Assembly (NCBI RefSeq): GCF_007997285.1
Contig: NZ_VORX01000003.1
Span: forward strand, 496,001-560,000
Direction: 5' to 3'
DNA from: Gelidibacter salicanalis
GTDB taxonomy: Bacteria; Bacteroidota; Bacteroidia; Flavobacteriales; Flavobacteriaceae
DNA length: 64,000 nucleotides
Each line of letters opens with the position of its first letter. The first letter of the stretch is position 1. Made by a program: the position numbers and the translations under genes. Of this stretch, positions 11,531-63,918 are shown piece by piece. A model generated the notes under the pieces. That model was not told the origin of the DNA. It made no database searches and saw nothing but the letters and a program-made list of their open reading frames with translations.

Positions 11531-11564
11531 GCTAAATCCGCGTCATCTGCGTTCTACAATAGGT

Positions 11565-12190: not shown

Positions 12191-12194
12191 CATC

Positions 12195-40328: not shown

Positions 40329-40402
40329 TCCTCCTTAGCTCAGTTGGTTAGAGCATCTGACTGTTAATCAGAGGGTCCTTGGTTCGAGCCCAAGAGGAGG
40401 AG
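40329..40402 (+). tRNA. tRNA-Asn (GTT)
   Basis: A 74-base cloverleaf: acceptor TCCTCCT / AGGAGGA, D-arm TAGCTCAGTTGGTTAGA, anticodon arm CTGACTGTTAATCAG with GTT, T-arm CTTGGTTCGAGCCCAAG, discriminator G. CCA is not encoded. A tyrosine recombinase gene follows, so its 3' end is the likely attachment site of an integrative element. Confidence 0.97.
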
Positions 40403-40407
40403 CAAAC

Positions 40408-40437: not shown

Positions 40438-40632
40438 TGTTTTTGGTAGGTTTTCAATTTTTATCAGTGTTTGTAAGGTTCAATAGGACTATTAAGATAA
40501 TTTGATCAAATGACAACTTGCCAACTTTTTCTATATAAAAGGTTACCTATTAGGTTACCATAAAATAAGAAAAGGTTACCACTTTTTAAGTGTCCTAAAT
40601 GTATGCCAATCGTTTAACTAAAACTTTTGGTC

Positions 40633-44365: not shown

Positions 44366-45257
44366 ATGCAATTACAACAAGCACAAAGACAGCAAGTTAA
44401 ATTGAGAATTGGTCTTTCAGGTCCTTCAGGTTTTGGCAAAACATATTCTGCTTTATTACTTGCTAAAGGTATTACTAATGACTACACAAAAATAGCAGTC
44501 ATAGATACAGAAAATGGTTCTGCCAGCCTTTATTCACACTTGGGACGTTACAATACCATTACATTACAGGCACCTTTTTCACCTGAAAAATATATCGCAG
44601 CCATTGAAATTTGTGAAAAAGCCAAAATGGAAGTTATCATTATTGATAGTATCACACATGAATGGACAGGAGCAGGAGGGTGCTTAGAAATTCATGATCA
44701 ATTAGGCGGGAAATTGGGCTCCTGTAACTAAAAGACATCAAGGTTTTGTCAATAAAATATTAGAATCCAGTTGTCACGTCATTACAACCGCCAGAACAAA
44801 GGTTGATTACTCAATGGATAAAGATAGCAGTGGAAAGACTAAAGTCACAAAACATGGTCTAAAAGAGATTACACGTGAAGGTTGGGAGTATGAATTAACT
44901 GTAAATTTTGAATTGATCAATGAAAATCATTTAGTTAGATCTTCAAAGGACAGGACTGGTTTGTTTATGAATAAACCAGAGTTTATCATGAATGCAGCCA
45001 CAGGCAGAAAGCTGATGGATTGGTGTAATAACGGAACAGACTTGGATACAGCACGTAAAGAAATAAATGAGTGTGAGACCATAGAGGGATTGCGACATAT
45101 TTATTCAAAATACCCGAACCATCAAACGGTATTAATGTCAGATTTTATGGAACGTAAAGACTTCATTGAAAACGTACATTATGAAATTGTCCCAAATTCA
45201 GAAATTATTGAACCAGAAAAACTTAAAGAAAATGGAATTATTACAAACGCAAAATAG
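44366..45257 (+). pseudogene. RecA/Sak4-like AAA family ATPase, frameshifted
   Basis: The first frame (44366-44731, 121 codons) carries Walker A GPSGFGKT (residues 19-26), DTENGSA and Walker B VIIIDSIT, then ends at GGKLGSC-N-stop. From 44706 a second frame reads NWAPVTKRHQGFVNKILESS, then VITTARTKVDYSMDKD and on to 45257. Together they make a normal phage-type nucleotide-binding ATPase of about 295 residues, broken by a small deletion between about 44708 and 44716 (a few residues of the expected GGK...NW link also seem to be missing). An internal ATG at 44814 could produce only a piece without the P loop. Confidence 0.85.
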
Positions 45258-47621: not shown

Positions 47622-49049
47622 ATGTTAAAAGAAGTAAAAACAAGCGACAATCTAAAGTTCTGGACCATAGATGACAAGGGAAAAGTCACTATTATTCAAA
47701 GTAAACTCATAGAGTTTATTTCAAAATCTGGTTTTGCAAAGGCAGAAACCTCAAGCACTGACTATCTGTTGGTGCAACAATCAAGCAATACTGTTAGAGA
47801 GATTGCGGATCATGCAATTGTAGATTTTGTAAAGGCATATTTAATTAAAATAAAAATGCTTGATGTTTACGAGGCATTCATAAGAGGATCTTCAGGTTAC
47901 ATTTCAAAGGCTAAACTTCGTTTTTTGAATACTGTAGAAATGGTAAACGATAAAGATGAATTTGACAGTAGTTGGTTTCATTTTCAGAATTTAAGTTGTC
48001 AAGTTGGCAAAAAATCTACTAGAAGCATATTACGCGAGGATATCGAAGGTAAAATTTGGGAATCCCGAATTATACAACGGGAATGTTTTCCATTGCTTGC
48101 ACAACACCCTTCACAGTTTCAAATCTTCTGCTATAATCTATCAGGAAAGAACAAGGATAGGTTTTTGGCTTTGAAAACATTGGTAGGATATTTACTTCAT
48201 CGGAATCAGGATCCAGGAAATGCTAGAGCTATAATTTTTATTGATGAAAACATCTCATTTGATGGTACTGCGAATGGTGGAACAGGGAAAAGTTTATTGC
48301 TAAGCGCCATTGGGAAATGTAGGGAAGTTTCTGTTATGGATGGTAAAAATATAAAATCAAATAGCTGGTTTAAGAATCAACGTATAAACCGCACAACAGA
48401 TGTGATATTTTATGATGATGTAAATAAAGATTTCTCATTGGAGACTTTATATTCTATGATTACAACAGGGATTACTGTTGAGAAAAAATATCAAGCAGAA
48501 GTATATATTTCTCCTAGTGATGCTCCTAAAATATGTATTTCTAGTAATCATATAGTAGGTGGTACAGGAGGTAGTACCGATATTAGAAGGAGGTGTGAGT
48601 TTGAAGTGTCTAATCATTATAGTGAATCCTATACTCCCGCAGATGATTTTGGTAATTATTTTTTTGAAGGCTGGGATGATCAAGAATGGAATAATTTCTA
48701 TGCATTTATGATGCATTGTGTACAAATATATTTGCGCAATGGGCTAATACATGCAAAACCTATAAATCTTAAAAAGAATGGGTTGATTAATATAACTTCA
48801 GAGGATTTCGTCATGTTTATGGAAATGGGTCTTGTAGAATTGAACCAATGGATTAGTAAGGATATAGTTTTAAAATTATTTATAGAAGAATTTATATATT
48901 GGAATAATATGTCTCCCCATAAAATGACCAAATGGATGAAAGCGTATGCAAAACATAACGGAATTATATATGAGGATCGGAAAGTTGGAGAGAGATATGA
49001 ATTTTATTTAAAATCTATTAAAGAGGAGTTGAGCGATGAAGAAGAATAA
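47622..49049 (+). CDS. SF3-type primase-helicase (DUF5906/P4-like) of the element
   Basis: A 475-residue replication protein. Walker A is NGGTGKSLL (Lys223), Walker B TDVIFYDDVNKD, and motif C APKICISSNH; DIRRRCEFEV matches the arginine finger region. This is the superfamily 3 helicase layout seen in phage- and plasmid-type primase-helicases. The N-terminal 180 residues are not a recognised primase. It likely unwinds the element's own origin, which may be the hairpin just upstream. Its last 14 bases overlap the GIY-YIG gene. Confidence 0.88.
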   Translation: MLKEVKTSDNLKFWTIDDKGKVTIIQSKLIEFISKSGFAKAETSSTDYLLVQQSSNTVREIADHAIVDFVKAYLIKIKMLDVYEAFIRGSSGYISKAKLRFLNTVEMVNDKDEFDSSWFHFQNLSCQVGKKSTRSILREDIEGKIWESRIIQRECFPLLAQHPSQFQIFCYNLSGKNKDRFLALKTLVGYLLHRNQDPGNARAIIFIDENISFDGTANGGTGKSLLLSAIGKCREVSVMDGKNIKSNSWFKNQRINRTTDVIFYDDVNKDFSLETLYSMITTGITVEKKYQAEVYISPSDAPKICISSNHIVGGTGGSTDIRRRCEFEVSNHYSESYTPADDFGNYFFEGWDDQEWNNFYAFMMHCVQIYLRNGLIHAKPINLKKNGLINITSEDFVMFMEMGLVELNQWISKDIVLKLFIEEFIYWNNMSPHKMTKWMKAYAKHNGIIYEDRKVGERYEFYLKSIKEELSDEEE

Positions 49050-49701
49050 AAAATCAGCCGGTATCATCTATACAGTAGAATGTAAAATCACAGGTGAATT
49101 TTATGTAGGAGCAACAACAGGCTCTATTCATCAAAGAGAATTGGATCATACAGAACGTGCGAAACGAGGCGAAAAGGGAAGATTTTATGAGGCTATTTCA
49201 ACACATGGACCTGATGCCTTTGAATGGAGTCAAACAGACACTGCTAACACAACTGATAATCTTGCCAGAATGGAAAAGGAATACATTGCAAATTTTGATT
49301 CCAAGAATAATGGCTTTAATTCGGATTCGGGAGGTGGCATTAAAAAAACTGTATATCAATATAAAATTAATGATGGAAGTCTAGTAAATACTTATCCAAC
49401 ATTAAGTGAAGCCGCAGATGCAGTTAACGCAGCTAAAACAAGTATTGGAAATGCATGTATGGGTCAAAATAAAACCTGTAAAGGCTATCATTGGAGTTAT
49501 AATTTTAGCGTGCCTTTCAATCCAACAGATGATTTAAGAAAGAAAAAAGTCTTACAATATTCTCATTCTGGGAAATTAATAAATGAGTTTAATTCCGTAT
49601 CGGATGCAAGTAAGTTGACAGGGCTATCTAAAACATCTATAAGTCGGGTATGTAGGAATGAACGTGAGAAAAGCGGAGGTTTTATATGGAAATACAAGTA
49701 A
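49036..49701 (+). CDS. GIY-YIG nuclease with NUMOD repeats (homing-endonuclease-like)
   Basis: A 221-residue protein. N-terminal GIY-YIG domain: GIIYTVE (9-15), EFYVGAT (21-27), Arg34, His38, and Glu in MEKEYI (about 78-83). Two C-terminal NUMOD1-type DNA-binding modules follow (VYQYKINDGSLVNTYPTLSE with AADAVNAAKTSIGNAC; VLQYSHSGKLINEFNSVSD with ASKLTGLSKTSISRVC). This is the form of free-standing homing endonucleases. It overlaps the primase-helicase stop by 14 bases, so it is co-translated. No intron or intein is visible in the helicase. Confidence 0.9.
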   Translation: MKKNKKSAGIIYTVECKITGEFYVGATTGSIHQRELDHTERAKRGEKGRFYEAISTHGPDAFEWSQTDTANTTDNLARMEKEYIANFDSKNNGFNSDSGGGIKKTVYQYKINDGSLVNTYPTLSEAADAVNAAKTSIGNACMGQNKTCKGYHWSYNFSVPFNPTDDLRKKKVLQYSHSGKLINEFNSVSDASKLTGLSKTSISRVCRNEREKSGGFIWKYK

Positions 49702-49728: not shown

Positions 49729-49830
49729 GACAACAGCATTACTTGGCTAACGAACTTCAGCAAAAGTTATTTATGCATGTTTGCAGTTGGTATGCACATA
49801 TTTTGATACATTTATTGAAAATTAATATCA

Positions 49831-50841
49831 ATGTCTATAACCAAACATGCCATTATTCGCTATCAGGTACTTGATAGATGCTTTAGAAATCCAGGAAAAC
49901 AATATAACATTGAGGATTTATTGGAAGAATGTAATGATGCATTATCAGAATTTGATCCTAAAACCAATGGTATACAAAAACGACAATTGTATGAAGATAT
50001 TAATTTTATGCAATCAGAACATGGTTGGTCAGTTCCTATTGTGAAAACAAAGCGAGGTAGAACTGTTTATTATCAATATGATGATTTAAATTTCTCAATC
50101 AATAACCAACCCTTGAATCAAATGGAGGCAGAGCAACTCAAATCTGCAATGATGGTTTTAGGTCGATTTAAAGGCTTGCCACAATTTGAGTGGATTGAAG
50201 AGTTATTGCCAAAATTGGATCAAACTTTTAGCCTGTCCAAACAGTCTGAAAAAGTCATGAGTTTCGACAATAATGAGTATTTAAAAGGGATTGAACATCT
50301 ATCAGAATTATTCAATGCTATCATATATAACAAAACTTTACTTATTCAATACCACTCTTTCAAGAGTGAACAGCCCAACAGTGTCATATTCCATCCCTAT
50401 CATTTAAAGCAATATAATAAGCGTTGGTTTTTATTTGGTAAAAACCAACATTTTGAAAATTTAACTAATTTGGCATTGGATCGAATAGATTCAATTGAGC
50501 AAGCAGGCGAGAAATTTGTGCCTAATTCAATTGTGGATTTTGAAGAATATTTTGATGATGTAATTGGAGTAACGATACCAGAAGACAATAGCATCACGAA
50601 AATTGAATTAATTGCTAATCCTGGTTTGGCACCTTATATAAAGACCAAACCACTGCATGGATCTCAAAAGACCATTATAGAAGATGATAAAGGTTACACA
50701 TTTTCAATCGAGGTTTTTCTTAATCGTGAATTGGAAAGCGTTATTTTGGGGTTTGGTGAAAATATTAGAGTTATTTCCCCCATTGATTTTAAAGAACTAT
50801 TGACACATAGAATTCAACAGAATCTAAATAATTATAATTAA
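49831..50841 (+). CDS. WYL-domain transcriptional regulator
   Basis: A 336-residue regulator with an N-terminal winged helix (about 1-75; AIIRYQVLDRCF, QLYEDINFMQSE) and a WYL domain (about 150-250; YNKTLLIQYHSFKS, PYHLKQYNKRWFLFG, LALDRIDSIE), then the WCX C-terminal extension. WYL proteins bind nucleic-acid or nucleotide ligands and often control defence islands (for example BrxR, CapW). It opens the R-M island with the same orientation. A TGCACATATT sequence at 49793-49802, upstream of it, recurs in similar form before other genes of the island. Confidence 0.93.
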   Translation: MSITKHAIIRYQVLDRCFRNPGKQYNIEDLLEECNDALSEFDPKTNGIQKRQLYEDINFMQSEHGWSVPIVKTKRGRTVYYQYDDLNFSINNQPLNQMEAEQLKSAMMVLGRFKGLPQFEWIEELLPKLDQTFSLSKQSEKVMSFDNNEYLKGIEHLSELFNAIIYNKTLLIQYHSFKSEQPNSVIFHPYHLKQYNKRWFLFGKNQHFENLTNLALDRIDSIEQAGEKFVPNSIVDFEEYFDDVIGVTIPEDNSITKIELIANPGLAPYIKTKPLHGSQKTIIEDDKGYTFSIEVFLNRELESVILGFGENIRVISPIDFKELLTHRIQQNLNNYN

Positions 50842-50846
50842 TGCAG

Positions 50847-50866
50847 ATTGAATGCACACATTCAAT
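50847..50866. promoter_or_regulatory. inverted repeat upstream of the methylase-kinase gene
   Basis: ATTGAATG, CACA, CATTCAAT: perfect 8-bp arms. It holds GCACACATT, shared with the region before hsdR (60307-60315) and, shorter, hsdM (54395-54402). It is a candidate operator for the WYL protein. Confidence 0.55.
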
Positions 50867-50935
50867 TTAAGTTTGCTCCGAAATCAATTAGAAAATAGTA
50901 ATTGGTATTATCAAAATCAAAAATTTTAAAATTAA

Positions 50936-53437
50936 ATGAAGAAAATTAACCTAAATGTTATAGCATCACTAGTTACTGCCGAGGCGCTTTACAAAAGTAA
51001 CTTGGATGAGAAGGAAGTGATGATTCTTCAAAGTTTCCTTTTGGTTTTAAGAAAAGAAAAGCTGTTGGTATCGAATATTGAAGCAAATAATTTAAATGAT
51101 TTCAAGAATGAAATCAAATTAATTACGGAATCAACACAAAATCAAAGTTTACTTAAAGTTTATAATACCTGGTTGGTTCCAATATTGAATAAAGTACGTC
51201 GACATTATTTGTTTTCTACAGTTAATGCATACGCTAACCTAAGCGACGAATACTTGATGAAAAATGGTAAAGATTTGTTTGACAATCAGTTAAATGGATA
51301 CTTCAATAGCGTAGGGAAAAGAAACAGTGACGCTATTCAACCTCAAGAGTTGACAGAGTTATTCAATTATTTTTTGGATAAAGATAAAGTTATAGATTAC
51401 TACAATCCTTTTGCTGGCTTGGCTTCATTGGCTTTAAATCTCCCACAAAATGTGTCTTATTATGGAGAAGAATTAGAAGAGTTAAGTTGTATGTTGGGTT
51501 CCTTAAGGATGATAATGTATAACTGCCCAAAACATTTCTTACTTAAACACACAAACAGTATTGAAAACTGGTCAGTTGGGTCTGAAAAACGGTATGACCA
51601 CATTGCTTTTAATCCTCCATTTAATTTAAAATTAGATGAAGCATATAATCATTTTTTGCATGTAAGCGAATATGGTTCTCAAAGAAACGCCAATTCTCTA
51701 ATTATCTCAGAATGTTTTAAAAAACTCAATAATGATGGTTTAATGGTCTTATTAGTACCTAATGGTTTTTTATTCAGTAAGCAAAAAAATGAATTAGCTT
51801 TAAAGAAGTATTTAGTGGATAATCATCATATAAAATCTATAATTTCCCTACCAAAAAGGATTTTCGTCTTTTCAGGAGTATCTGCTAATTTGCTCATTCT
51901 GTCAAAATCAGAAGTAGGAAGTACCATTTTTGTTGATGCTACAACTTGCATAAAAAAAGAATCAAGTAAAGTTCAAATTATCGATACAGATCAAGTAAAG
52001 AATGTTTTAAATAGTATTAGTTCTCATTTAAAAAAGGAAATTAAGGTCGAACAAATAATTGAAAATGGATATGACCTCTCTGTTCACAGATATGTTTACG
52101 AGGAACTCAATTTAAATCCCGAGGAAGAACTTCAACTACAACCATTATCGGAATTGGTTATACCTGTAACTAGACAAAAGATTCAGGAGAAATCTGGGAA
52201 ATTTTTGAGAATGAGCGACTTATCTAATGATGAAATTAATTATACAAAGTCTTTCGAAAACTTACTAAATAGGGATTTAAGAGGTAATGCCAATTTACTC
52301 CCAAATCAGTCTCTGTTATTATCATTGGTTTCTAATGATATTAGGCCGACATTTTATAATAAGTACAGTGATGAAAACATATATTACCCATATTTATTAA
52401 CGTTTGCTTGCACAGTAAAAACTGAAATTATTGATGTTGATTACCTTATAATTGAATTGCATAAAGATTATGTGAAAAATCAATTGAACCGTTTAAGAGA
52501 TGGTACTGTAATGTCAAAAATTCGAGTAAAGGAGCTATTATCAATTGAGATTGTAGTTCCATCCCCAGCTGAACAGAAGCAAAAAACATATCTCTTTAAA
52601 GATTTTGTAATTCAAGAAAAGAAAAGTGAAGTTAAGGAGTTAATGCACTCATATGGAATTGATGTTGCAGATGAAAACAGTTTTTTACGTCATCAAATAG
52701 CGGGACGTTTAAAAAATGCAAGAGGGGCTTTTAAATCTATAAAATCGATTTTTGAAAATGAAATCCTTTCTCGAATTCCAGAATTGTACAATTTAAAAAT
52801 AAATGATGCTTTAAATATTAAATTAGGTGATTATATGCAGATTTTAGAGAGGGATTTAAATAGTATAAATCAATCAGTAAATATTTCGAATGAAGCCATT
52901 GATTTCTCTAATATCAATGTCGAACGCATAGGATTGATTCAGTTTACAACTAAATATGTACAAGAAATTAAGAGTAGGACGTCTAATATATTCAAAATTG
53001 ACTTAAATGTTGATCAAAATGCTTTAATTGAAAACCAAATCAAAGAAATCTACATTAATGGTGATAAGGAATTGTTGAGACGGCTCTTTGATAATATTTT
53101 AGATAATGCAGAAAAGCATGGTTTTAATAATACAATATCTCACTTGAACAAAAACGAGATTCTATTCATATATGATTTTAAAGACCTAGAGGTTCAAGTG
53201 GACTTTACCAATACAGGTATTCCCTTGCCAGAAAATTATTCTTGGGAATCCTTTACCAGAAAGGGGAGTAAACATGGGGCAAATGGAGGTGAAGGTTATG
53301 GGGGTTGGTTAATGAATGAAATAATGAAAAAACATGGAGGAAAACTTAGTTTCAGTGATGAGACAGGTGCTGAAGGAATTAATAATGAATGGGCTACAGC
53401 AATTGAGTTATCTTTTCCATTTGAAATAAATAAATAA
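50936..53437 (+). CDS. fusion of N6-adenine DNA methylase, HsdS-like recognition region and histidine-kinase-like ATPase
   Basis: An 833-residue protein of unusual build. Residues 1-130 are helical. Residues 130-380 are an N6-adenine methylase of the HsdM/N6_Mtase group: SAM-binding YNPFAG (156-161), catalytic NPPF (226-229), VLLVPNGFLFS. Residues about 400-550 look like one HsdS half: LSELVIPVTRQK, GKFLRMSDLS, GTVMSKIRVKELLSIEIVVP with SPAEQKQ. Residues 570-833 look like a histidine kinase transmitter: HQIAGRLKNARGAF (candidate His586), N-box LLRRLFDNILDNAEKHG (Asn720, Asn724), FTNTGIPLP (757-765; the usual Asp is Asn), and G2 box GGEGYGG (784-790). A response-regulator-like gene follows one base later. 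HsdM and HsdS are encoded again downstream. I know no described system of this build. Confidence 0.85.
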   Translation: MKKINLNVIASLVTAEALYKSNLDEKEVMILQSFLLVLRKEKLLVSNIEANNLNDFKNEIKLITESTQNQSLLKVYNTWLVPILNKVRRHYLFSTVNAYANLSDEYLMKNGKDLFDNQLNGYFNSVGKRNSDAIQPQELTELFNYFLDKDKVIDYYNPFAGLASLALNLPQNVSYYGEELEELSCMLGSLRMIMYNCPKHFLLKHTNSIENWSVGSEKRYDHIAFNPPFNLKLDEAYNHFLHVSEYGSQRNANSLIISECFKKLNNDGLMVLLVPNGFLFSKQKNELALKKYLVDNHHIKSIISLPKRIFVFSGVSANLLILSKSEVGSTIFVDATTCIKKESSKVQIIDTDQVKNVLNSISSHLKKEIKVEQIIENGYDLSVHRYVYEELNLNPEEELQLQPLSELVIPVTRQKIQEKSGKFLRMSDLSNDEINYTKSFENLLNRDLRGNANLLPNQSLLLSLVSNDIRPTFYNKYSDENIYYPYLLTFACTVKTEIIDVDYLIIELHKDYVKNQLNRLRDGTVMSKIRVKELLSIEIVVPSPAEQKQKTYLFKDFVIQEKKSEVKELMHSYGIDVADENSFLRHQIAGRLKNARGAFKSIKSIFENEILSRIPELYNLKINDALNIKLGDYMQILERDLNSINQSVNISNEAIDFSNINVERIGLIQFTTKYVQEIKSRTSNIFKIDLNVDQNALIENQIKEIYINGDKELLRRLFDNILDNAEKHGFNNTISHLNKNEILFIYDFKDLEVQVDFTNTGIPLPENYSWESFTRKGSKHGANGGEGYGGWLMNEIMKKHGGKLSFSDETGAEGINNEWATAIELSFPFEINK

Positions 53438-53438
53438 G

Positions 53439-54365
53439 ATGATGTATAAAGTTTTATGGTTTGACGATGAGCACGAAACGTTGGAATTAATTAAGCAGGA
53501 GGCTTTATTAAACGATATCCAGCTGATTGGGTATTCCAATGCACGGGAAGGTTTAAAAGCTTTAAATGAGGATCCTAAGCTCTATGATGCTATTTTGTTA
53601 GATGGGCTGTTTTTGAAAAATGAAGATCAATCAAAGGATGATGTCACTGACGAGGCTTTCGGAGAAGTTGCTAAAACATTAGGTTTAATAAAAGAACGCA
53701 ACATCATAATACCCTGGTTTATTTACTCAGGACAACCAAATTTTGTTAAAGACAATAATGTTTTGGTTAATTTATTTAAAGACCAAGCTTTTGCAAACGG
53801 AAAAATCTTTAATAAAAATAAAGATGAAGATTTTCCAGAATTATGTAATGAGATAAAAAAAGCGGTTAATAACCAGCCTATTACTCAAGCAAGACACGAT
53901 AATCTCGAAATTTTCATGATTTTCAAAGATGGTTACTTATCATCAAATGTAGAGGATAATGTTTTACAGCTTTTAATACAGTCACTTCCACAGAATAATA
54001 CAGAATTTAAAGGTATGTTGACTAACATTCGTAGTATTCAAGAGAGTTGTTTTAATAAACTAAAAGGTATTAATGTTATTCCATCAAACCTATCGCGATT
54101 TACAGATGAATTAAAACATTTATCTGGAAATATGACTTGGAATTCCACTTTGAGAAAGTATGAGCCTAAGTCTACAATATATCAAAGTCACGAAATAGAA
54201 TTGTTGCAAAGTTATATTTATAAAACTTGTGGTTCGTATATTCATTATTTGGATAATCAAAACTATGGTGGTTATATGATTTCAAATTATACCATAGAAT
54301 CTTTAAGACAAGGGTTATTAGAAATTTTGTTGTGGTTTAGAAAGACCTATCATGAAAACAAATAA
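53439..54365 (+). CDS. response-regulator-like protein with unrecognised C-terminal output region
   Basis: A 308-residue protein starting one base after the methylase-kinase stop. The N-terminal 135 residues have receiver-domain signs: acidic pair in VLWFDDEHE (Asp9, Asp10), phosphoacceptor in DAILLDGLFL (Asp55), Ser in WFIYSGQPN (Ser97) and Lys in GKIFNKNK (Lys122 or nearby). An insert after the phosphoacceptor (KNEDQSKDDVTDEAFGE) is longer than usual. The remaining 170-200 residues are helical and match no DNA-binding, nuclease or cyclase family I know. It is the clear partner of the upstream kinase-like domain. Confidence 0.8.
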   Translation: MMYKVLWFDDEHETLELIKQEALLNDIQLIGYSNAREGLKALNEDPKLYDAILLDGLFLKNEDQSKDDVTDEAFGEVAKTLGLIKERNIIIPWFIYSGQPNFVKDNNVLVNLFKDQAFANGKIFNKNKDEDFPELCNEIKKAVNNQPITQARHDNLEIFMIFKDGYLSSNVEDNVLQLLIQSLPQNNTEFKGMLTNIRSIQESCFNKLKGINVIPSNLSRFTDELKHLSGNMTWNSTLRKYEPKSTIYQSHEIELLQSYIYKTCGSYIHYLDNQNYGGYMISNYTIESLRQGLLEILLWFRKTYHENK

Positions 54366-54445: not shown

Positions 54446-55927
54446 ATGATTACAGGAGAAATTAAAAGTAAAGTAGATAAAATCTGGGATGATTTCTGGA
54501 CAGGTGGTATATCCAATCCACTAACAGTTATTGAGCAGTTCACATTTCTAATATTTATAAAACAATTAGACGACAAGCAGATTCAACAAGAAAAGGAAGC
54601 CTCCTTATTGGGTCTTCCACTTGAAAAACCAATATATACTGAAAAGCAAAAACCTTTACGCTGGAGCAGTTTCAAGCATAAAGATCCTGAAACCATGTTT
54701 GATCTATTTACAAGACCAAAACGTGAATTGGATGATATTACAGCTTTCGATTTCATGAAAACTATTGGTGCTAAAGGTGGCGAATTTGCCAAGTTTATGA
54801 AAGGTGCCATCTTCATGATTCAGTCCCCAAAGCTTTTGGATAAGGTAGTGCAACAAATAGACCAATTACCATTGGGTAATCGTGATACTAAAGGTGACCT
54901 ATACGAATACATGCTTTCTAAAATAGCAGAGGCAGGTACAAACGGACAGTTTCGTACGCCACGTCATATCATCAACATGATGGTTGCCATGGCGCAACCT
55001 AAGCAAGATGATATTATCTGTGATCCAGCCTGTGGAACAGCAGGTTTTTTGGTAAGTGCAGGCGAGTATGTTTTTGATAATCATAACGATTGGTTTAACG
55101 ACAAAACCTTTCGTGAGCATTTTAATAGTAATATGTTTCATGGGACTGAATTTGACCCGTCCATGTTGCGTATTGCAGCTATGAACTTGCAGTTGCATGG
55201 TATGGAAACCCCTGCATTGACAGGTACTGATGCTTTAAGTGAAGCCAACGGTAACGTGGTGGATGCTTATACCCTTATTCTGGCAAACCCACCATTTAAA
55301 GGGAGTTTAGATTATGACGAAGTAGAAAGTAGCTTATTGCAAACTACGAAAACTAAAAAAACAGAATTACTCTTTTTATCCCTCATATTACGTACTTTAA
55401 AAGTAGGAGGACGCGCGGCTGTTATTGTACCAGACGGCGTCTTATTTGGAAGTTCTAATGCGCACAAAAGTATCCGTAAAGAAATTGTAGAGAATCAAAA
55501 GCTAGATGCAGTTATTTCTATGCCAAGTGGAGTTTTTAAACCTTATGCAGGTGTCAGTACAGCTATTTTATTCTTTACTAAAACCAATTCCGGGGGTACA
55601 GATAACGTGTGGTTTTACGACATGAAAGCTGATGGATATAGTTTAGACGATAAGCGTAATGCGGTAAAAGAGAACGATATTCCAGACATCTTAAAGCGAT
55701 ATTACAGTTTAGATGCTGAGGCCGAGAGAGCGCGCACTGACCAAAGTTTTATGGTTCCTTTTGAGGCGATTAAAATTAATGACTGGGACTTATCTATAAA
55801 TAGTTATAAGGAAATTATTTACAAAGAGATTGAATTTGAGTTACCAGCTTGTATTATTAAAGAGATAGAAGAACTAGACATAGAAAGAAATCAAGCTTTA
55901 TTTGCGTTAAAAGAGATGTTGAAATGA
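54446..55927 (+). CDS. hsdM: type I restriction-modification methylase subunit
   Basis: A 493-residue N6-adenine methyltransferase of a type I R-M system. The N-terminal HsdM_N helical domain (about 1-130) has IWDDFWTGGISNPLTVIEQ; the SAM-binding motif is DPACGTAGF (193-201), the catalytic motif NPPF (281-284), followed by GRAAVIVPDGVLFGSS. It works as M2S (modification) and with HsdR as the restriction complex. Its last four bases (ATGA) overlap hsdS. Confidence 0.96.
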   Translation: MITGEIKSKVDKIWDDFWTGGISNPLTVIEQFTFLIFIKQLDDKQIQQEKEASLLGLPLEKPIYTEKQKPLRWSSFKHKDPETMFDLFTRPKRELDDITAFDFMKTIGAKGGEFAKFMKGAIFMIQSPKLLDKVVQQIDQLPLGNRDTKGDLYEYMLSKIAEAGTNGQFRTPRHIINMMVAMAQPKQDDIICDPACGTAGFLVSAGEYVFDNHNDWFNDKTFREHFNSNMFHGTEFDPSMLRIAAMNLQLHGMETPALTGTDALSEANGNVVDAYTLILANPPFKGSLDYDEVESSLLQTTKTKKTELLFLSLILRTLKVGGRAAVIVPDGVLFGSSNAHKSIRKEIVENQKLDAVISMPSGVFKPYAGVSTAILFFTKTNSGGTDNVWFYDMKADGYSLDDKRNAVKENDIPDILKRYYSLDAEAERARTDQSFMVPFEAIKINDWDLSINSYKEIIYKEIEFELPACIIKEIEELDIERNQALFALKEMLK

Positions 55928-57111
55928 ATAAATCTAATTTACTTCAGAATTTAAATAATCTTAAATTATTACCCTCATCATGGGCTGTTAAAAATTTTAG
56001 TGATGTAGTTGCCGATAATTCTGGGGGAAATAAAAAACTAGCTAAATCTAATTTTTTAGATGAGGGTGATATTGCAATAGTGGATCAAGGAAAAGATCTC
56101 ATTGCGGGATATTACAGTGACCCTGATTTTATGGTTAAAGCTAAGCCGCCTTATGTCGTGTTCGGTGACCACACTAGAGCATTTAAATATATTGATTTTC
56201 CATTCATAATGGGTGCTGATGGGACTAAAATATTACAACCTAAGAAAAGCAACTGTAATTCGAAATTTCTATATTATTTCTTTTTGAGTATAAATGTTCC
56301 TAACGCAGGTTATAGCAGACATTTTAAGTACTTGAAAACCCTGAAAATCCCACTCCCTCCCCTCGAAACGCAAAAGAAGATAACTAGAATTTTAGATGAA
56401 GCAGACAAACTGCAACAATTAGACAAACAGCTCATTGAAAATTATGATGCTCTTACGCAATCGTTGTTTTTGGATATGTTTGGAGATCCTGCTACAAACT
56501 CTATGGGTTGGAGACTTTCAACTATTGAAAAGATATTAGAGACTAAATCTCAAAATGGTCACTATGCGCCAAGACAGGATTACATCAGAGATGGTATTCA
56601 AATGATTCATATGTCTGATGCTTTTTATCAAATTGTGAAACCTGGAAACTTAAAACGAGTAAAAGCCGATGAAAGGCTTATTCTGAAATATGAAATAAAA
56701 TCTAAAGACTTAATTTTGTCAAGAAGATCATTAAATTACGAAGGAGCTGCACAGCCTTGTCTAGTTCCTGAATATGACGAGCCATTGATATATGAATCCT
56801 CTTTAATCAGGTTAAGACCAGATCTGGATATTATCAATACAACTTTTCTTTTTTATTTTTTAAATAATCAAAGAGCTAGACAGAGGTATGTATTGAAACA
56901 TGTTACAAGATCTACTATATCAGGTATCAACAACAAAGGGTTGAATGCGATTGAGTTATTAGTACCTCCGATAAATCTCCAAAACCAATTTGCAGAAAGA
57001 ATACAAGCTATAACAGCTCAAAAGAAACAGTTACAACAAAGCCTTGTAAAATCAGAAGAATTGTTCAATAGCTTATTGCAAAAAGCATTTAAAGGGGAGT
57101 TAATTAAATAA
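55924..57111 (+). CDS. hsdS: type I restriction-modification specificity subunit
   Basis: A 395-residue specificity subunit with two target recognition domains (about 15-135 and 190-350), each followed by a long helical conserved region: LKIPLPPLETQKKITRILDE plus DKLQQLDKQLIENYDAL, and IELLVPPINLQNQFAERI plus TAQKKQLQQSLVKSEELF. TRD sequences set the bipartite DNA target, which cannot be read from sequence alone. Coupled to hsdM by an ATGA overlap. Confidence 0.95.
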   Translation: MNKSNLLQNLNNLKLLPSSWAVKNFSDVVADNSGGNKKLAKSNFLDEGDIAIVDQGKDLIAGYYSDPDFMVKAKPPYVVFGDHTRAFKYIDFPFIMGADGTKILQPKKSNCNSKFLYYFFLSINVPNAGYSRHFKYLKTLKIPLPPLETQKKITRILDEADKLQQLDKQLIENYDALTQSLFLDMFGDPATNSMGWRLSTIEKILETKSQNGHYAPRQDYIRDGIQMIHMSDAFYQIVKPGNLKRVKADERLILKYEIKSKDLILSRRSLNYEGAAQPCLVPEYDEPLIYESSLIRLRPDLDIINTTFLFYFLNNQRARQRYVLKHVTRSTISGINNKGLNAIELLVPPINLQNQFAERIQAITAQKKQLQQSLVKSEELFNSLLQKAFKGELIK

Positions 57112-57806: not shown

Positions 57807-57927
57807 AATATGGAAATAATGAGTAATTCATAACATCTGAAAATAGCATTTAAAATGATTGAATTTAGACCATTATCTGTCTAAAATAAAATAAACTCAA
57901 AAGTGGAAAATTATTTAATTTTATTTG

Positions 57928-59571
57928 ATGAAAGAAAATAGCGGTTTAGATAAAAAATCTTTGAGTATAATCTCTGGTAAAAATGCAGATTGGAAAGAAT
58001 TGGCCAAGGATTGTGTTTGTTTTGCAAATGCTCACGGAGGCAAGATATTAATTGGAATTGAGGATCATGAAGAATTACCAAATGCAACTCAAATAGTCTC
58101 AAAATCTTTAATTGAGCAAATTAATAAGCGTATCCCATCTTTAACATTGCAGGTTGGCATTTCCCCTATAATTATAACCGCAGAAAATGGGGGTCAATAT
58201 ATAGAGTTGTCAGTATTTAGAAGTACGCAGTCTGTTGCAAGTACTACTGATGGTCGTTATTATATGAGAGTTTCGGACGAGTGTAGGCCCGTGCTTCCAG
58301 ATCAAATAGAGCGTTTGTTTTCAGAGAAAAGTGCATTCGTTTGGGAAGAAAAAACAGTACGAAAGATTCCTGTTGGGGATTGTGATATCGAAAAGTTTAC
58401 CGCTTTTTTAAAAGATATCAAGTCTTCAGAACGTGTTAGTGCTTTTGTGAAAGAGATGACGACAGAAGAAATTACAGATTATTATTTTTTAACTCATAAT
58501 GGATTTTTGACCAATTTAGGTGTGCTGTGGATCGGTAAACGTAGAGATAGAGCCATTTTACATTATGCGCCCTCTATACAGTTTATTAAATATAACGAAG
58601 AAGAGAATAAAATCTATAAAAAAGTTTGGGATGATTTTTCGCAAAATCCCAAAGAGCTCATTTCTGATATTTTAACGCAAATACCAGATTGGAATGAATT
58701 TACAGAAGTATCGGATGGTATTTTTAGAAAAAATATTTACAATTATCCTCCAGAGGTAATTAGAGAGCTCATTGCAAATGCCTTTGCCCATAGAAACTAT
58801 ACAATGCGTGGCGATATTTTTATAAATCTGCATCACGATAGATTGGAGATACATAGTCCTGGTTTGTTGCCTTTAGGAGTAACCCCAAGCAACATTTTGA
58901 CAAAATCCGTGCAGCGAAACCAATTACTTGCCAAATTGTTTTATGATTTAAAACTTATGGAAAAGGAAGGCAGTGGCTATGATAAAGTTTATGAGGTATT
59001 ATTAGGGAATGGAAAGGAAGTGCCGGAAGTTATTGAAGGAGAGGATAGAGTAGTTGTGACGGTAAAAAAACAAATTATAAGTAAGGACGTTCTAAAATTA
59101 ATGGACAGAGCTTCAAAAGAATTACAGTTAAGGCAACGCGAAGTAATAGTATTAGGATTAATTGCTCAGAATGATGGTGTTTTTGCGGTTGAGCTGTCAA
59201 AAGATTTGAATGTTAATAAACCTAATGGTTTACAGCAATGGCTAGGGCGTTTGCTAGAGTTTGAATTGATACTCACAAAGGGTAAAACTAAGGGAACATT
59301 TTATTATGTAAATCCTGAATTTTTAAGAACTACAGATTTTGTAGAAAAAACCAATCTGAAAAGAATAGAGCCACACCGTCTTCAAGAACTGATTTATGAA
59401 GACTTAAAAAATTATCCAGAAAGCCCTATTAGTGAAATACATAAGAGAATAGGGGAAGAGATTAAACAAAGAACTCTTAAATCCAAATTAGACGAAATGA
59501 TTGAAAATGATTTGATTCTAAAATCTGGAGAAAAGAGATGGACAACCTATTCTATCAACATAAAGCCGTGA
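57928..59571 (+). CDS. AlbA_2 / Schlafen-like ATP-binding protein with winged-helix tail
   Basis: A 547-residue protein: AlbA_2 (Schlafen AAA_4-type) DNA/RNA-binding domain at about 10-130 (DWKELAKDCVCFANAHGGKI, GGQYIELSVFRS, YYMRVSDECRPVLP), a GHKL-like ATP-binding module at about 275-365 (EVIRELIANAFAHRNYT, LEIHSPGLLPLGV, KEGSGYDKVYEVL), and winged-helix units in the last 170 residues. Such proteins are often found inside type I R-M and other defence loci; their role there is not settled. ATG 57928 is the proper start; the TTG before it is in frame. Confidence 0.88.
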   Translation: MKENSGLDKKSLSIISGKNADWKELAKDCVCFANAHGGKILIGIEDHEELPNATQIVSKSLIEQINKRIPSLTLQVGISPIIITAENGGQYIELSVFRSTQSVASTTDGRYYMRVSDECRPVLPDQIERLFSEKSAFVWEEKTVRKIPVGDCDIEKFTAFLKDIKSSERVSAFVKEMTTEEITDYYFLTHNGFLTNLGVLWIGKRRDRAILHYAPSIQFIKYNEEENKIYKKVWDDFSQNPKELISDILTQIPDWNEFTEVSDGIFRKNIYNYPPEVIRELIANAFAHRNYTMRGDIFINLHHDRLEIHSPGLLPLGVTPSNILTKSVQRNQLLAKLFYDLKLMEKEGSGYDKVYEVLLGNGKEVPEVIEGEDRVVVTVKKQIISKDVLKLMDRASKELQLRQREVIVLGLIAQNDGVFAVELSKDLNVNKPNGLQQWLGRLLEFELILTKGKTKGTFYYVNPEFLRTTDFVEKTNLKRIEPHRLQELIYEDLKNYPESPISEIHKRIGEEIKQRTLKSKLDEMIENDLILKSGEKRWTTYSINIKP

Positions 59572-59658: not shown

Positions 59659-60231
59659 ATGAATGTTTGGGAAGATCCTTATACTGAAAGTCTTAATGAC
59701 CTTCTTGAAGAAAGTAAAAGCATTTCTATAAAGCTTAAAACGCGATTAAATGCTATTGACTGTCCAACAATAAATGAGCTTTATCTTGAAAAGAATTCAA
59801 GATATCATATTCAAAAAAAATTATTTAATGAATTTGGATATTTACCAAACAGTCGTTTGTATCCAAATAAGGACATTTTAAATGAGTTCAAAGGCTTGTA
59901 TGTCTTTGGTGAAAAGTCTGAAGATAGTGTCTTGCCCATGTATCTTGGAATCTCTAGAACAATCTATAGGAGGTTGAGACAACATGGTTTTGGAAAAAAA
60001 CATAATGAGTGTACTTTGGCCTATATTCTGGCCAATCATGAAAATTTCGAAAGTAAATTTAATTTAGGTAGAGCGCAACTGCCAACTGACCTTTTAAGCA
60101 TGGAAAGAGAAAGAGTCAGGAATTTTAAAGTAGCCTTGTACCCAGTGGAAAGCAATTACGAATTATATTTTCATGAAGTTGCCATAGCAGGACTTCTAAA
60201 AACTAAATTCAATAAATTTAAAACACATTGA
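59659..60231 (+). CDS. GIY-YIG family nuclease-like protein in the R-M island
   Basis: A 190-residue protein. Residues 79-175 fit a GIY-YIG fold: GLYVFGE (79-85), MYLGIS (94-99), Arg104/Arg105, His109, and Glu173 in the last helix. The GIY becomes GLY and YIG becomes YLG, common variants. It has no NUMOD modules, unlike the element's other GIY-YIG protein, so it is a different kind, perhaps a restriction effector. The first 75 residues are helical. Confidence 0.72.
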   Translation: MNVWEDPYTESLNDLLEESKSISIKLKTRLNAIDCPTINELYLEKNSRYHIQKKLFNEFGYLPNSRLYPNKDILNEFKGLYVFGEKSEDSVLPMYLGISRTIYRRLRQHGFGKKHNECTLAYILANHENFESKFNLGRAQLPTDLLSMERERVRNFKVALYPVESNYELYFHEVAIAGLLKTKFNKFKTH

Positions 60232-60480: not shown

Positions 60481-63400
60481 ATGAGTAATTTTGAATTTAT
60501 AAAGGATGAATTTCCGGAGTTATATGTCCAATCTATTGAGGCTGAAAAGTTTGCAATAACTGCACCTAAATATGCTGCGTTGCAGTGCAGGATTGTGTTA
60601 GAACTTGCAATCAACTGGCTTTTTGATAATGATCCCGAATTAGTAAGACCTTACGATAATACTTTATCAGCACTCTTGCATCATCCTGAATTTAGAAATG
60701 GTATAAAACCAACCATGTTTACGGAGCTTAACTTGATAAGAAAATCAGGTAATATGGCTGCTCACGGAAATAAAGTAACGCAAAACCAAGCTTTGGTGTC
60801 TTTGCGGAGCATTTTTAGGTTTCTGTCATATGTTAGTAAATACTACAGTGCAGGGAATCTTGAAATTCCGATGTTTAATGAGGATTTAATCAAGAAAGGA
60901 GATACCAATGATTTATCATCAAAGGCTCTTCAGGCAAAATCAGATAAAATTGATAGACTTATTTTAGAGTCTAAAGAGCAATTAGAAAGGCAAGAGTCTC
61001 TCCAAAATGAAAATGAACTTTTAAAACTTCAATTAAAGCAGCAACAAAAAGAATTTAAGCAACGTAAACACAAGCGTCAAGAAGCCATCAAATTTGAAGA
61101 GGCTATTCCTGAATTGAATTCAGAGCAGGAAACAAGAAAGCTGTTAATTGATGTTTTATTGCAGGAAGCTGGTTGGAAGAATCTGCGTAAAGGCATAGAA
61201 AATGAATTTCCAGTGATTGGAATGCCAATTTCGACCAATACTTCAGGGAAAGGATATGTTGATTACGTGCTTTGGGGTGATGATGGAAAGCCATTAGCTG
61301 TAATAGAAGCAAAAAAGACCATGAGTAGCTCTAAACAAGGAAAGCATCAAGCTTTTTTATATGCAAATTGTTTGGAAGAAACGACAGGGCAACGTCCTGT
61401 AATCTTCTACAGTAATGGATTTGAAACACATTTATGGGATGACACTTTTTATCCAGAACGAGAAGTAAGCGGTTTTTATACAAAAGACGAATTGCAATAT
61501 CTAATTGCCAGAAGAGAAACAAGAACTGACTTAAGAAACTTTCAAGTCAATCTTGATATTACTGGTAGACCTTATCAATTAGAAGCTATTAAACGTGTTA
61601 GCGAAGCATTGGTTACAACGTGCCAGGGAGAATTAAAAGGTAAGTCCAGAGAAGCACTTTTAGTGATGGCAACAGGAAGTGGAAAGACCAGAATATCAGC
61701 GTCTATTGTAGATATGCTTACCAAAACCAATTGGGTAAAACGTGTTCTGTTCTTAGCAGATAGAAATGCGTTGGTTACACAAGCTAAAAATGCCTTTAAA
61801 GAGCACTTACCTCATTTGAGTGCTATAGACTTGACTAAAGAAAAAGAAGATAATGGCACGCGTGTGGTGTTTTCAACTTATCCGACCATAATGAATCGTA
61901 TAGATAGTCATAAAAATGAAGACGGCAGATTTTATGGCGTGGGACATTTTGATTTGATAATTATTGATGAAGCGCATCGCTCTGTTTATAAAAAATACGG
62001 AGCCATTTTCGATTATTTTGATGGTCTTTTAATTGGGTTAACTGCTACGCCTAAGAAAGATATTGATATTAATACCTATTCCTTATTTAAAATTGAAGAT
62101 GATAATCCCACATTCGCATATGAGTTAAATCAAGCTGTAAAAGATAAATTTCTTGTGCCTCCTAGGGCAATAGAAGTTCCTGTCAAGTTCATATATGAAG
62201 GTATAAAATACAAAGAGCTCTCCGAAGATGATAAGGCGAAATTTGAGGACACCTTCGATGACGTTGATCTAAACGAAGAGGAAGATTATGTCATAGAAAA
62301 ATCGCAAATTAATAAGTTCTTATTTAACGCTGATACCATAGATAAGGTATTGGATTACCTAATGAACAATGGAATAAAAGTTGAGGGGGGCGATAAATTA
62401 GGTAAAACAATCATTTTTGCAAAAAACCATAAACATGCAATTTTTATTGAAGAACGCTTTAATAAGAATTATCCAGAATATTCAGGCAAGTTTCTAAGAG
62501 TTATTGATAATTACGAAAGTAAAGCACAGGATTTATTAGAAAATTTTTGTCAAGATAAAATAGAATTAGAACCCCAAATTGCGGTGTCTGTAGATATGTT
62601 AGATACAGGTGTAGATGCACCTCGTGTTGTCAACTTAGTTTTCTTTAAACAAGTAAGATCTTATTCTAAATTCTGGCAAATGATTGGCAGAGGAACACGA
62701 TTAAGACCAGATTTGTTTGGTCCAGGCATAGATAAAGAGCATTTTATAATTTTTGATATCTGTGATAATTTTTCCTTTTTTGGTGAGCATCCTGATGGTA
62801 TTAATGCGAGTAGTTCTAAAGCCTTATCACAGCAAGTTTTTGACCTTAAACTGAATATTATTACTACCATTAGGGATAATTCAGATGCAACAATTGAAGA
62901 GGATGAGTTGGCTCAGAATTACACGAACCAGCTTTACACTTTAATTGCAGATTTAGATGAAGAACGTTTTGAAGTGAGAAAACACTGGAGGTTAGTAAAG
63001 GAGTTTCAAAGTCGAACTCGATGGGATAACTTGTCATTAACTGATAATGCAGATATTTCGAATAATTTGTCATTATTACCATCCTATACAAATGATGTAA
63101 ATGAACGTGCAAAGCGTTTTGATTTACTCATTTTAAATCTACAATTAGCAATGCTTGTTGGGAATATGAGTTTGCAAGATCGCTATATAAAAAACATATA
63201 TGGAATAGGTAAAAGTCTTTACAGGAAAAGAAATATTCCAAAGATTAAGGAAAAATTATCTACAATAAATCAAATTCAAGACGAGGAATTTTGGGTAAAT
63301 ATCAATGTCAAGGCTGTTGAAGATATACGTATTGAAATTCGTGACTTATTGAAATTTATTGAAAAAGAAGAGGTCAAAATTATTTACACCAATTTTAAGG

Positions 63401-63918
63401 ATGTTTTACATGAAGATAGAGTTACAGAACATGATATCATGCCTGCTTACACAAGATTGAAGAGTTATCGGGACAGAGTGGAATCATTTATTAGAAAGAA
63501 TAAATCACATTTAGTAATTGATAAATTACACAAGAACATTGCAATCACTCCTAAGGAGCTTGAATTGTTGGAATCATTTTTATTTAATGACGAGTTAGGA
63601 TCCAAGGAAGAGTATATTAAAGAATATGGAGAGGAGCCCTTAGGTAAATTTATAAGATCTGTTGTTGGGTTGGATATTGAAACAGTAAATAGCCTATTTG
63701 CCAACTTTATTGATGACAAAAATTTAAAACCAGTTCAGATTACTTTTATTCAAACACTGATTAACTATTTAAACGTCAATGGCACACTTGATAAAAAGCT
63801 ACTTACCAAACCTCCCTTCAACGAAGCCAATGATAGTGGTGTAATTGGGTTATTTGAAGATGATGATGTGCGGAAAATAGTATCCCTCATTGACACTGTT
63901 AATGAAAATATAGGTTAA
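60481..63918 (+). CDS. hsdR: type I restriction endonuclease subunit R with N-terminal DUF4145 domain
   Basis: A 1145-residue ATP-dependent translocase and nuclease that cuts unmodified DNA. Order: DUF4145 (about 1-120; KYAALQCRIVLELAINWLFD), coiled coil (about 150-205), PD-(D/E)XK nuclease with Asp261 (GKGYVDYVLWG) and Glu276-x-Lys278 (LAVIEAKKTM), SF2 helicase with Walker A ATGSGKT (397-403), DEAH (496-499), SAT-like LTATPKK, and motif VI MIGRGTRLRPDLFG, then the EcoEI/R124-type C-terminal region (about 780-1140). It acts with the HsdM and HsdS encoded 3.4 kb upstream; three other genes lie between. Confidence 0.96.
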   Translation: MSNFEFIKDEFPELYVQSIEAEKFAITAPKYAALQCRIVLELAINWLFDNDPELVRPYDNTLSALLHHPEFRNGIKPTMFTELNLIRKSGNMAAHGNKVTQNQALVSLRSIFRFLSYVSKYYSAGNLEIPMFNEDLIKKGDTNDLSSKALQAKSDKIDRLILESKEQLERQESLQNENELLKLQLKQQQKEFKQRKHKRQEAIKFEEAIPELNSEQETRKLLIDVLLQEAGWKNLRKGIENEFPVIGMPISTNTSGKGYVDYVLWGDDGKPLAVIEAKKTMSSSKQGKHQAFLYANCLEETTGQRPVIFYSNGFETHLWDDTFYPEREVSGFYTKDELQYLIARRETRTDLRNFQVNLDITGRPYQLEAIKRVSEALVTTCQGELKGKSREALLVMATGSGKTRISASIVDMLTKTNWVKRVLFLADRNALVTQAKNAFKEHLPHLSAIDLTKEKEDNGTRVVFSTYPTIMNRIDSHKNEDGRFYGVGHFDLIIIDEAHRSVYKKYGAIFDYFDGLLIGLTATPKKDIDINTYSLFKIEDDNPTFAYELNQAVKDKFLVPPRAIEVPVKFIYEGIKYKELSEDDKAKFEDTFDDVDLNEEEDYVIEKSQINKFLFNADTIDKVLDYLMNNGIKVEGGDKLGKTIIFAKNHKHAIFIEERFNKNYPEYSGKFLRVIDNYESKAQDLLENFCQDKIELEPQIAVSVDMLDTGVDAPRVVNLVFFKQVRSYSKFWQMIGRGTRLRPDLFGPGIDKEHFIIFDICDNFSFFGEHPDGINASSSKALSQQVFDLKLNIITTIRDNSDATIEEDELAQNYTNQLYTLIADLDEERFEVRKHWRLVKEFQSRTRWDNLSLTDNADISNNLSLLPSYTNDVNERAKRFDLLILNLQLAMLVGNMSLQDRYIKNIYGIGKSLYRKRNIPKIKEKLSTINQIQDEEFWVNINVKAVEDIRIEIRDLLKFIEKEEVKIIYTNFKDVLHEDRVTEHDIMPAYTRLKSYRDRVESFIRKNKSHLVIDKLHKNIAITPKELELLESFLFNDELGSKEEYIKEYGEEPLGKFIRSVVGLDIETVNSLFANFIDDKNLKPVQITFIQTLINYLNVNGTLDKKLLTKPPFNEANDSGVIGLFEDDDVRKIVSLIDTVNENIG

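Follow-up and report, generated by a model that had tools for sequence, protein, structure and literature searches.

Our analysis of a 64-kb stretch of the Gelidibacter salicanalis genome (contig NZ_VORX01000003.1; source genome 3.78 Mb), hereafter the window, revealed an N6-methylase/target-recognition domain–histidine kinase fusion protein (hereafter MHK) that is encoded in a type I restriction-modification (R-M) locus and is followed, one base later, by the gene for a response-regulator-like partner. MHK is a genuine fusion of a methylase fold, a target-recognition domain (TRD) and a histidine-kinase core. We read MHK and its neighbour as a soluble two-component system whose input would be a type I methylase-like DNA-recognition module, and we give the full mechanism proposed below a probability of roughly 0.6. 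Computation backs the domain make-up, the invariant phosphorelay residues, the pairing of the two genes, an operator-like element and the absence of a link to the specificity of the local R-M system, and a predicted phosphorelay between MHK and its partner is well supported by comparison. The features of the pair, in window coordinates, are as follows.

50936–53437, + strand: MHK gene (833 residues), with an HsdM-like N-terminus, an N6-methylase fold, one HsdS-type TRD and a histidine kinase
51290–52102, + strand: methylase-fold domain of MHK, residues 119–389, with YNPFAG and NPPF (Pfam; Foldseek)
52145–52585, + strand: TRD of MHK, about residues 404–550 (PADLOC specificity models; family profile)
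52565–52765, + strand: continuous predicted helix of MHK, residues 544–610, running from the TRD into the H-box (AlphaFold2; H586 codon at 52691–52693)
53060–53368, + strand: HATPase_c ATP-binding domain of MHK, residues 709–811 (Pfam, E 1.3e-9)
53439–54365, + strand: response-regulator-like partner gene (308 residues), starting one base after the MHK gene and encoding a divergent receiver (residues 1–145; codon of the putative phospho-acceptor D55 at 53601–53603) and a helical output domain (residues 146–308, with R198, E202 and H269) (AlphaFold, Foldseek, alignment, hhalign)

The domains of MHK lie in a single open reading frame (ORF), with Pfam matches to N6_Mtase over residues 119–389 (E 4.5e-31) and to HATPase_c over residues 709–811, Eco57I being the only other family matched at E ≤ 0.01. 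The PADLOC type I specificity models match about residues 410–567 (best E 1.3e-9). Further, a 46-member family profile, compared with solved structures, recovered HsdM chains over residues 6–408 (E 9.7e-58), HsdS chains over residues 397–567 (E 5e-17) and histidine kinases over residues 577–822 (E 8e-13); the Pfam and family-profile E-values lie far beyond chance, which rules out a fortuitous resemblance. The first-pass annotation of this DNA had seen a methylase, an HsdS-like recognition half and a transmitter in one protein, on which Pfam, PADLOC and the family profile agree, and had the ORF coordinates, the lengths of 833 and 308 residues and the one-base gap right. MHK as a named PADLOC defence protein was rejected, as only methylase and specificity models appear among the matches listed (25 of 26). 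In the AlphaFold2 model (mean predicted local distance difference test score, pLDDT, 85.8; predicted template modelling score 0.66), the top Foldseek matches are type I methyltransferase chains (HsdM 3lkd; type I methyltransferase 7eew), followed by the adenine methyltransferase CamA. The TRD of HsdS likewise leads into a coiled-coil helix, and in the predicted model the kinase dimerisation helix of MHK appears to occupy the place of that helix.

The pair recurs well beyond the window. A partner-protein search of 395 genomes of the phylum matched 12, the source genome included. Thirteen loci were found without an MHK query, namely the window, 11 loci from a receiver-protein genome search and one from a receiver-protein plasmid search; a profile of 13 partners then matched 18 of 397 genomes of the family at E ≤ 1e-5, from which 10 further loci were examined (8 with the MHK–receiver pair) and 6 weak ones left out. 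A scan based on the MHK alignment yielded 40 loci through two patterns, YNPFAG[LI]A and [DEN]NA[EV]KH[AG]F; 38 of these carry Bacteroidota names, and the other two are a Leptospiraceae and a Fibrobacter metagenome-assembled genome. Three Myroides plasmids carry the receiver gene, and the one examined reads WYL, MHK, receiver, HsdM, HsdS, two more genes, HsdR. A scan of viral contigs gave one distant match (L099, in our numbering of loci), and a search of a phage collection gave none. After removal of L020, L021, L089 and L093 as duplicates of L059, L086, L049 and L072, the gene-order counts rest on 56 non-redundant loci besides the window, among them L087, whose sensor is not a methylase; these loci share descent, and the counts are not independent events. 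The alignment of 47 MHKs leaves out L063 (truncated MHK), L070 and L084 (cut by a contig end) and L087, and that of 47 partners leaves out the loci without a partner (L054, L063, L070 and L084); L089 to L096, where retained, enter the gene-order and operator counts and stand outside both alignments. With 56 further loci at hand, a pseudogene or a one-off fusion was rejected. On comparative grounds, the MHK–receiver pair is a conserved, mainly Bacteroidota module.

Across the aligned MHKs, N6_Mtase and HATPase_c were each matched in 46/47 and Methylase_S in 28/47 (Pfam, E ≤ 0.01), the MHK of the window being among those without Methylase_S. Residues H586, N724, F730, N759, G761, G787 and G789 are invariant, although the conservation of the stretch around N724, like that of YNPFAG, is partly selected by the search patterns, outside which lie H586, the G boxes, motif IV and the receiver residues. 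In the 13 loci found without an MHK query, every invariant MHK residue except Met1 sits in the kinase. Specifically, H586, which had been proposed as a candidate phospho-histidine, is the H-box histidine on the predicted helix 544–610 and is kept in 47/47, and the features of a Bergerat ATP-binding fold are present (HATPase_c as above; residues of the N, G1 and G2 boxes in 47/47), with a G1 box of the form N-x-G rather than DxGxG.

The partner offers the matching receiver. Its AlphaFold model (pLDDT 92.3) is matched by Foldseek to the receiver 3jte with a template modelling (TM) score of 0.74 over the target, and a profile search of solved sequences with the partner returned a receiver at E 1.2e-4; PADLOC-DB 2.0.0 and NCBIfam gave 0 families for the window partner at E ≤ 0.1. 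The acidic pocket, the putative phospho-aspartate D55, S/T97 and K126 are all in place: D10, D55, K126 and R198 are invariant in the 47 partners, Asp stands at position 9 in 45/47, and position 97 is S or T in 47/47. The first-pass annotation had thus picked Asp9/10, Asp55 and Ser97 rightly, and erred in the lysine, as Lys122 is found in 24/47 and the invariant one is K126. It had also named in advance what would undo the phosphorelay idea, namely no conserved histidine or no receiver fold; we found the histidine conserved and the receiver fold present. The two partners also diverge together: in correlations of pairwise identity (p from 499 permutations, floor p 0.002), kinase core and receiver gave rho 0.72 (n=46) with p at that floor, and 0.69 on the 35 HsdM-bearing loci. 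PorX, the top-ranked Foldseek match, was rejected as the identity of the partner, with a TM score of 0.21–0.22 over the target and a high root-mean-square deviation, and it is also countered by Pfam, which finds neither PglZ nor any other domain in the partner.

The output domain keeps R198 in 47/47 and E202 and H269 in 46/47 each. Some partners have an extra C-terminal stretch, with S1CSD-TOTE-2 matched in 5/47 at E ≤ 0.1 (best 2e-6), and the partner of L096 (9239–10183) is a receiver fused to SLFN_AlbA_2 (E 1.9e-16), in which Pfam barely detects Response_reg (E 0.0075). A tie between the output domain and HsdR clade was rejected on counts alone, clades 1 and 2 having a long partner in 12 and 8 loci and a short one in 7 and 4. 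In L087 (2429–4644), the same kinase–receiver core carries an AAA-type NTPase region at the position of the methylase (weak Pfam matches; AAA_22 E 0.0007, below cut-off). These swaps of parts, an AAA-type NTPase sensor in L087 and a Schlafen output in L096, support an input/output logic. A HARE-HTH match stands at the N-terminus of MHK in L025, L095 and L096, above cut-off in L095 only; this domain is described, in the part of PMC10853773 that deals with it, as recognising DNA with modified bases.

The pair sits in the window among the following genes and sites, and the type I R-M locus claimed for it by the first-pass annotation is there, with HsdM at 54446, HsdS at 55924 and HsdR at 60481.

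49782–49796, + strand: TGCA-N7-TGCA, second operator-like copy, upstream of the WYL gene (exact match)
49831–50841, + strand: WYL-domain regulator gene (336 residues; Pfam WYL E 2.1e-12, WCX E 1.3e-7)
50842–50856, + strand: TGCA-N7-TGCA inverted repeat, probable WYL operator of the MHK operon (exact match; enrichment across loci)
54446–55927, + strand: HsdM, type I methyltransferase subunit (Pfam; PADLOC MTase_I E 4.9e-176)
55924–57111, + strand: HsdS, specificity subunit (Pfam, PADLOC)
57925–59571, + strand: accessory gene, Schlafen AlbA_2 plus RecG-C-like HATPase_c_4 protein (Pfam)
59659–60231, + strand: accessory gene, GIY-YIG-like protein (Pfam E 0.0017, below the curated cut-off)
60481–63918, + strand: HsdR, restriction subunit with an N-terminal DUF4145 (Pfam, PADLOC)

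This arrangement is common to much of the family, as judged with WYL and hsd profiles whose source sequences were those of the window and of a few of these loci. Among loci with room for the genes in question, the receiver gene lies directly next to MHK in 52/53, the exception being L063; a WYL gene lies at most 4 ORFs upstream of MHK in 35/47 other loci; and, at most 12 ORFs downstream, HsdM and HsdS are found in 35/49 and HsdM, HsdS and HsdR in 30/46. In L063 (9983–11182), from a Kordia relative, MHK is shortened to 399 residues with no receiver gene behind it.

The best-surviving rival, which we nevertheless consider unlikely, holds that the methylase–TRD part of MHK detects whether the target sites of the adjacent R-M enzyme are methylated and gates restriction, e.g., by restraining HsdR for as long as the host genome lacks methylation. 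The presence of the pair inside hsd loci and the single HsdS-type TRD of MHK would fit this; the first-pass annotation had proposed that this part may read methylation state or foreign DNA. The co-divergence of the parts speaks otherwise. MHK TRD and HsdM showed no significant correlation (rho 0.13, p 0.098, n=35; 0.06 in a separate comparison), and the MHK TRD gave rho -0.02 with HsdS TRD1 and 0.17 with TRD2, coefficients without permutation test that carry little weight alone with the HsdS TRDs near the noise floor (mean identity 0.18 and 0.21, 465 pairs). The MHK TRD instead diverges at the same pace as the MHK methylase domain of its own chain (mean pairwise identity 0.30 for each, 1081 pairs). 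The kinase core, likewise, was uncorrelated with HsdM (rho 0.03, p 0.33) and WYL (0.04, p 0.34), as was the receiver (HsdM 0.08, p 0.17; WYL 0.04, p 0.32). Single pairs of loci illustrate the point: between L066 and L075, identity is 69% in the MHK TRD against 23% and 20% in the HsdS TRDs; between L071 and L074, it is 79% in the MHK methylase domain and 30% in HsdM; and in L019 and L055, the MHK methylase domains are identical and HsdS TRD2 agrees at 94%, yet TRD1 has been exchanged (20%). Further, ten loci, which hold the pair or, in the case of L063, a truncated MHK, lack any match to HsdM, HsdS or HsdR in the stretch fetched. Hence, no visible coupling ties the sensor to the specificity of the adjacent R-M system, and the claim that it reads methylation at the targets of that system is not upheld.

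Alternatively, MHK could be mainly a working second methyltransferase with a target of its own, its kinase part merely regulating. The strong N6_Mtase scores, together with the NPPF and motif I-like YNPFAG of the window MHK, speak for such an enzyme, which we judge quite improbable given how the family treats these motifs. Methylase motif IV reads NPP[FY] in 16/47 MHKs vs 33/33 HsdMs of the same loci; it fits the broader [NDS]PP[FYWH] in 19/47 and departs from it in 28/47, in 4 of which the sole deviation is NPPL. At residue 157 of motif I, Asn stands in 41/47 MHKs, that of the window included, vs Asp in 33/33 HsdMs, and motif I is lost in L026, L027, L029 and L030, while the kinase residues are constant throughout; in the alignment, rows of divergent MHKs may be out of register at the methylase motifs. 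Given that a minority of MHKs keep NPP[FY] and that the TRD does not track local HsdS, the methylase part resembles a sensor that reads DNA rather than the enzyme protecting the sites of this R-M system.

The methylase pocket could also be imagined to sense S-adenosylmethionine (SAM), or its depletion by a phage, instead of DNA. Some phages destroy SAM, and the motif I residues P158 (43/47) and G161 (44/47) are kept more often than the catalytic N226 (23/47). This reading, too, has little probability in our estimation: as one of the two patterns behind 40 of the loci, YNPFAG owes part of its conservation to selection by the search, and the TRD region, needless for a SAM sensor, is kept family-wide. 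Finally, a GHKL ATPase without phosphorelay (of the MORC or RecG-C type in defence loci) with a purely structural partner, although other GHKL proteins occur in such loci, e.g., the HATPase_c_4 gene at 57925 of the window, is very unlikely in view of H586, D55 and K126, each at 47/47, and the strong kinase core–receiver co-divergence.

Several observations weigh against the two-component reading itself. In the kinase, an acidic residue after the H-box histidine is rare (E 2/47, D 4/47) and, in the family alignment, the G1 box carries N at the D of the usual DxGxG, which leaves some doubt about kinase activity; further, helix 544–610 is predicted with modest confidence near H586 (pLDDT 63 and 69 over residues 571–590). 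The MHK of the window retains NPPF and could still methylate. In the partner of the window, Pfam Response_reg is without a match, as is every Pfam family at E ≤ 0.1. The output domain aligns colinearly, if weakly, with the DUF4145 N-terminus of the neighbouring HsdRs (hhalign P 0.0027, probability 11%) and shows a small correlation with HsdM (rho 0.16, p 0.034). DUF4145 is assigned to the HEPN superfamily in the portion of PMC3710099 that treats it, and the HEPN RNase motif Rx4-6H is missing from the output domain in 44/46, that of the window included, and found only in L023 and L085; with the motif missing, an active HEPN RNase in the window partner was rejected. Related receivers also occur without MHK, in L097 and L098, two of the 10 further loci from the family search. 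As to the tie to restriction, 14/49 loci with room lack HsdM and HsdS downstream; hsd-type genes lie upstream in 3 of these (L025, L028 and L096), L088 has a weak methylase match alone, and the other 10 are the loci without any hsd match in the stretch fetched. The check for co-occurrence with hsdMSR that the first-pass annotation had proposed gives hsdMSR downstream in 30/46 loci and no hsd match in those 10, and the tie of the pair to restriction as such is not obligatory.

For the two-component reading as a whole, we infer a dimer on DNA, a signal, a phosphotransfer, binding by the WYL protein and an output. As a dimer, MHK would bring a pair of methylase folds and a pair of identical TRDs to DNA, much in the manner of an M2S1 methyltransferase, and the kinase dimerisation helices would take the positions of the coiled-coil conserved regions of HsdS. 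Whenever this engagement with DNA alters, be it through foreign DNA, through a certain state of the DNA or through displacement by an anti-restriction mimic of DNA, the change would run along the long helix to H586, and the phosphate would pass from H586 to D55 of the partner. The helical output domain, which may be HEPN-like, could then mediate the action of the phosphorylated partner; in relatives, an added S1/CSD-like domain or a Schlafen domain could do so. The target would more likely be RNA or protein, the role of a classical activator that binds DNA being the less probable one. The WYL regulator would govern expression from the conserved operator. Its occurrence with unrelated type I systems leads us to regard the pair as an alarm or guard that plugs into defence islands, rather than as part of any single R-M enzyme. 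A more specific version is advanced tentatively, at somewhat below even odds: MHK would be a DNA-reading histidine kinase, its repurposed methylase–TRD dimer a decoy sensor for foreign DNA or anti-restriction mimics with phosphorelay to a HEPN-like or Schlafen effector, the whole forming a two-component guard of restriction with its own WYL regulator that plugs into many type I loci and, singly, beside Druantia- or BREX-like genes.

TGCA-N7-TGCA, probably the operator of the WYL protein, occurs exactly upstream of MHK in 26/36 WYL-adjacent loci (0.04 expected) and with at most 1 mismatch in 34/36 (1.5 expected), where the motif was picked by eye and then counted on the same set and on controls, and the expected values come from mononucleotide shuffles. 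Exact matches were found in 7/20 loci without an adjacent WYL gene, in 7/40 WYL upstream regions (0.06 expected from shuffles) and in 0/37 HsdM upstream regions; with a divergent WYL gene, a single element may be counted once for each of the two genes. In the window, the element at 50842–50856 overlaps a palindrome (50847–50866) that alone is not significant, 8.5% of shuffles holding one (arms ≥7, gap ≤4), and a promoter-like site (TTG at 50848, TAAGTTTG at 50868–50875) of a pattern that we take to be the Bacteroidota consensus and that has 5 matches on the + strand of the whole window.

The surroundings of the pair vary. In the window, a tRNA-Asn gene (40329–40403) and then a tyrosine integrase gene (40627–41838) lie upstream of the R-M/kinase locus, which may therefore sit on an element integrated at tRNA-Asn. 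An AAA_24-type ATPase ORF (44366–45257) stops early, at 44731, with more reading frames after it, and may be a broken gene; directly upstream of the WYL gene, a GIY-YIG plus NUMOD1 protein (49036–49701) resembles a free-standing homing endonuclease. Among the relatives, L062 encodes Druantia III proteins (DruH- and DruE-like) in its first 10 kb, flanked by the WYL gene on one side and MHK on the other; over the first 10 kb of L066, the genes agree with those of L062 in size and position. L088 has a BrxC-like ATPase and a large methylase near the pair, L083 a helicase (best PADLOC match C3a193, “poss. alt. Cas3”, next DpdF) and L026 a UvrD-like helicase; GmrSD was matched in 3/10 neighbour proteins scanned. 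In L025 a NACHT-domain ATPase gene (3446–6328), a defence-type neighbour, lies directly upstream of the MHK gene, and in L030 a Csx1-type CARF match (10904–12241; E 0.00033, below cut-off) directly follows the receiver gene of a very divergent pair.

If the two-component reading is true, restriction-modification would be linked to phosphorelay signalling, and defence islands would gain a means of detecting DNA, or mimicry of it, with a reversible response. An old question, how type I restriction loci recognise the moment to act, would become directly testable: the invariant H586 and D55 allow clean point mutants, and the conserved operator-like site allows a reporter.

Set against known systems, MHK is like HsdM and HsdS (EcoR124I, EcoKI) in the fold of its N-terminal region, methylase domain and TRD, and unlike them in the kinase core after the TRD, the relaxed catalytic motif, the one TRD per chain and the lack of any link found to local specificity. 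With Detocs the MHK pair would share two-component signalling in phage defence, although Detocs is not known to have a methylase or TRD sensor; a histidine kinase sensing the sequence or state of DNA via a DNA-recognition enzyme is not known to us. PrrC is a HEPN-type nuclease. It is an accessory gene in a type I locus and a single effector, switched on when EcoprrI is inhibited, according to the account of it in PMC12707154. The MHK–receiver pair is likewise embedded in a type I locus and has a candidate HEPN-like output; unlike PrrC, it is a separate kinase–receiver pair, for which we propose a guarding role. The WYL gene recalls the BrxR/CapW repressors, as PMC12255303 presents them in part, in standing beside a defence operon with a palindromic operator-like site, and differs in heading a methylase–kinase operon with a putative site, TGCA-N7-TGCA, derived in this analysis.

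The closest parallel concerns the first-pass claim that no such system had been described. For the fusion it stands: the open-licence PMC literature searched yielded no description of an N6-methylase/TRD–histidine kinase fusion, and the main text of a 2025 restriction-modification review contains none of “histidine kinase”, “two-component” and “response regulator”. For two-component-like pairs beside R-M genes it does not, since HEF_HK/Response_reg_2 pairs were predicted there in 2021 (Bellieny-Rabelo et al., PMC8011034). As far as the main text of that paper goes, these share with ours the adjacent kinase-like and receiver-like genes near R-M genes, a soluble kinase and a receiver divergent from Pfam Response_reg; in the same text, their input is mostly a MORC-type HATPase_c_3, type II R-M with C5 methylases is the most prominent neighbour, with type I too, and “fused” and “fusion” occur 0 times. 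PF19191 (HEF_HK) is not among the 14 families matched by the 47 MHKs at E ≤ 0.01, and PF19192 (Response_reg_2) is without a match in the window partner at E ≤ 0.1, the families of other members being judged among the matches listed (25 of 26). L098 (6047–12181), with a HATPase_c_3 plus HATPase_c protein, a receiver-like gene and, one gene on, an Eco57I-type methylase, is possibly another methylase-linked two-component locus and resembles a pair of the HEF_HK kind, though PF19191 and PF19192 are without a match there at E ≤ 0.01. MHK, unlike HEF_HK, carries its N6-methylase and TRD input in the same polypeptide as the kinase, and does so in type I loci.

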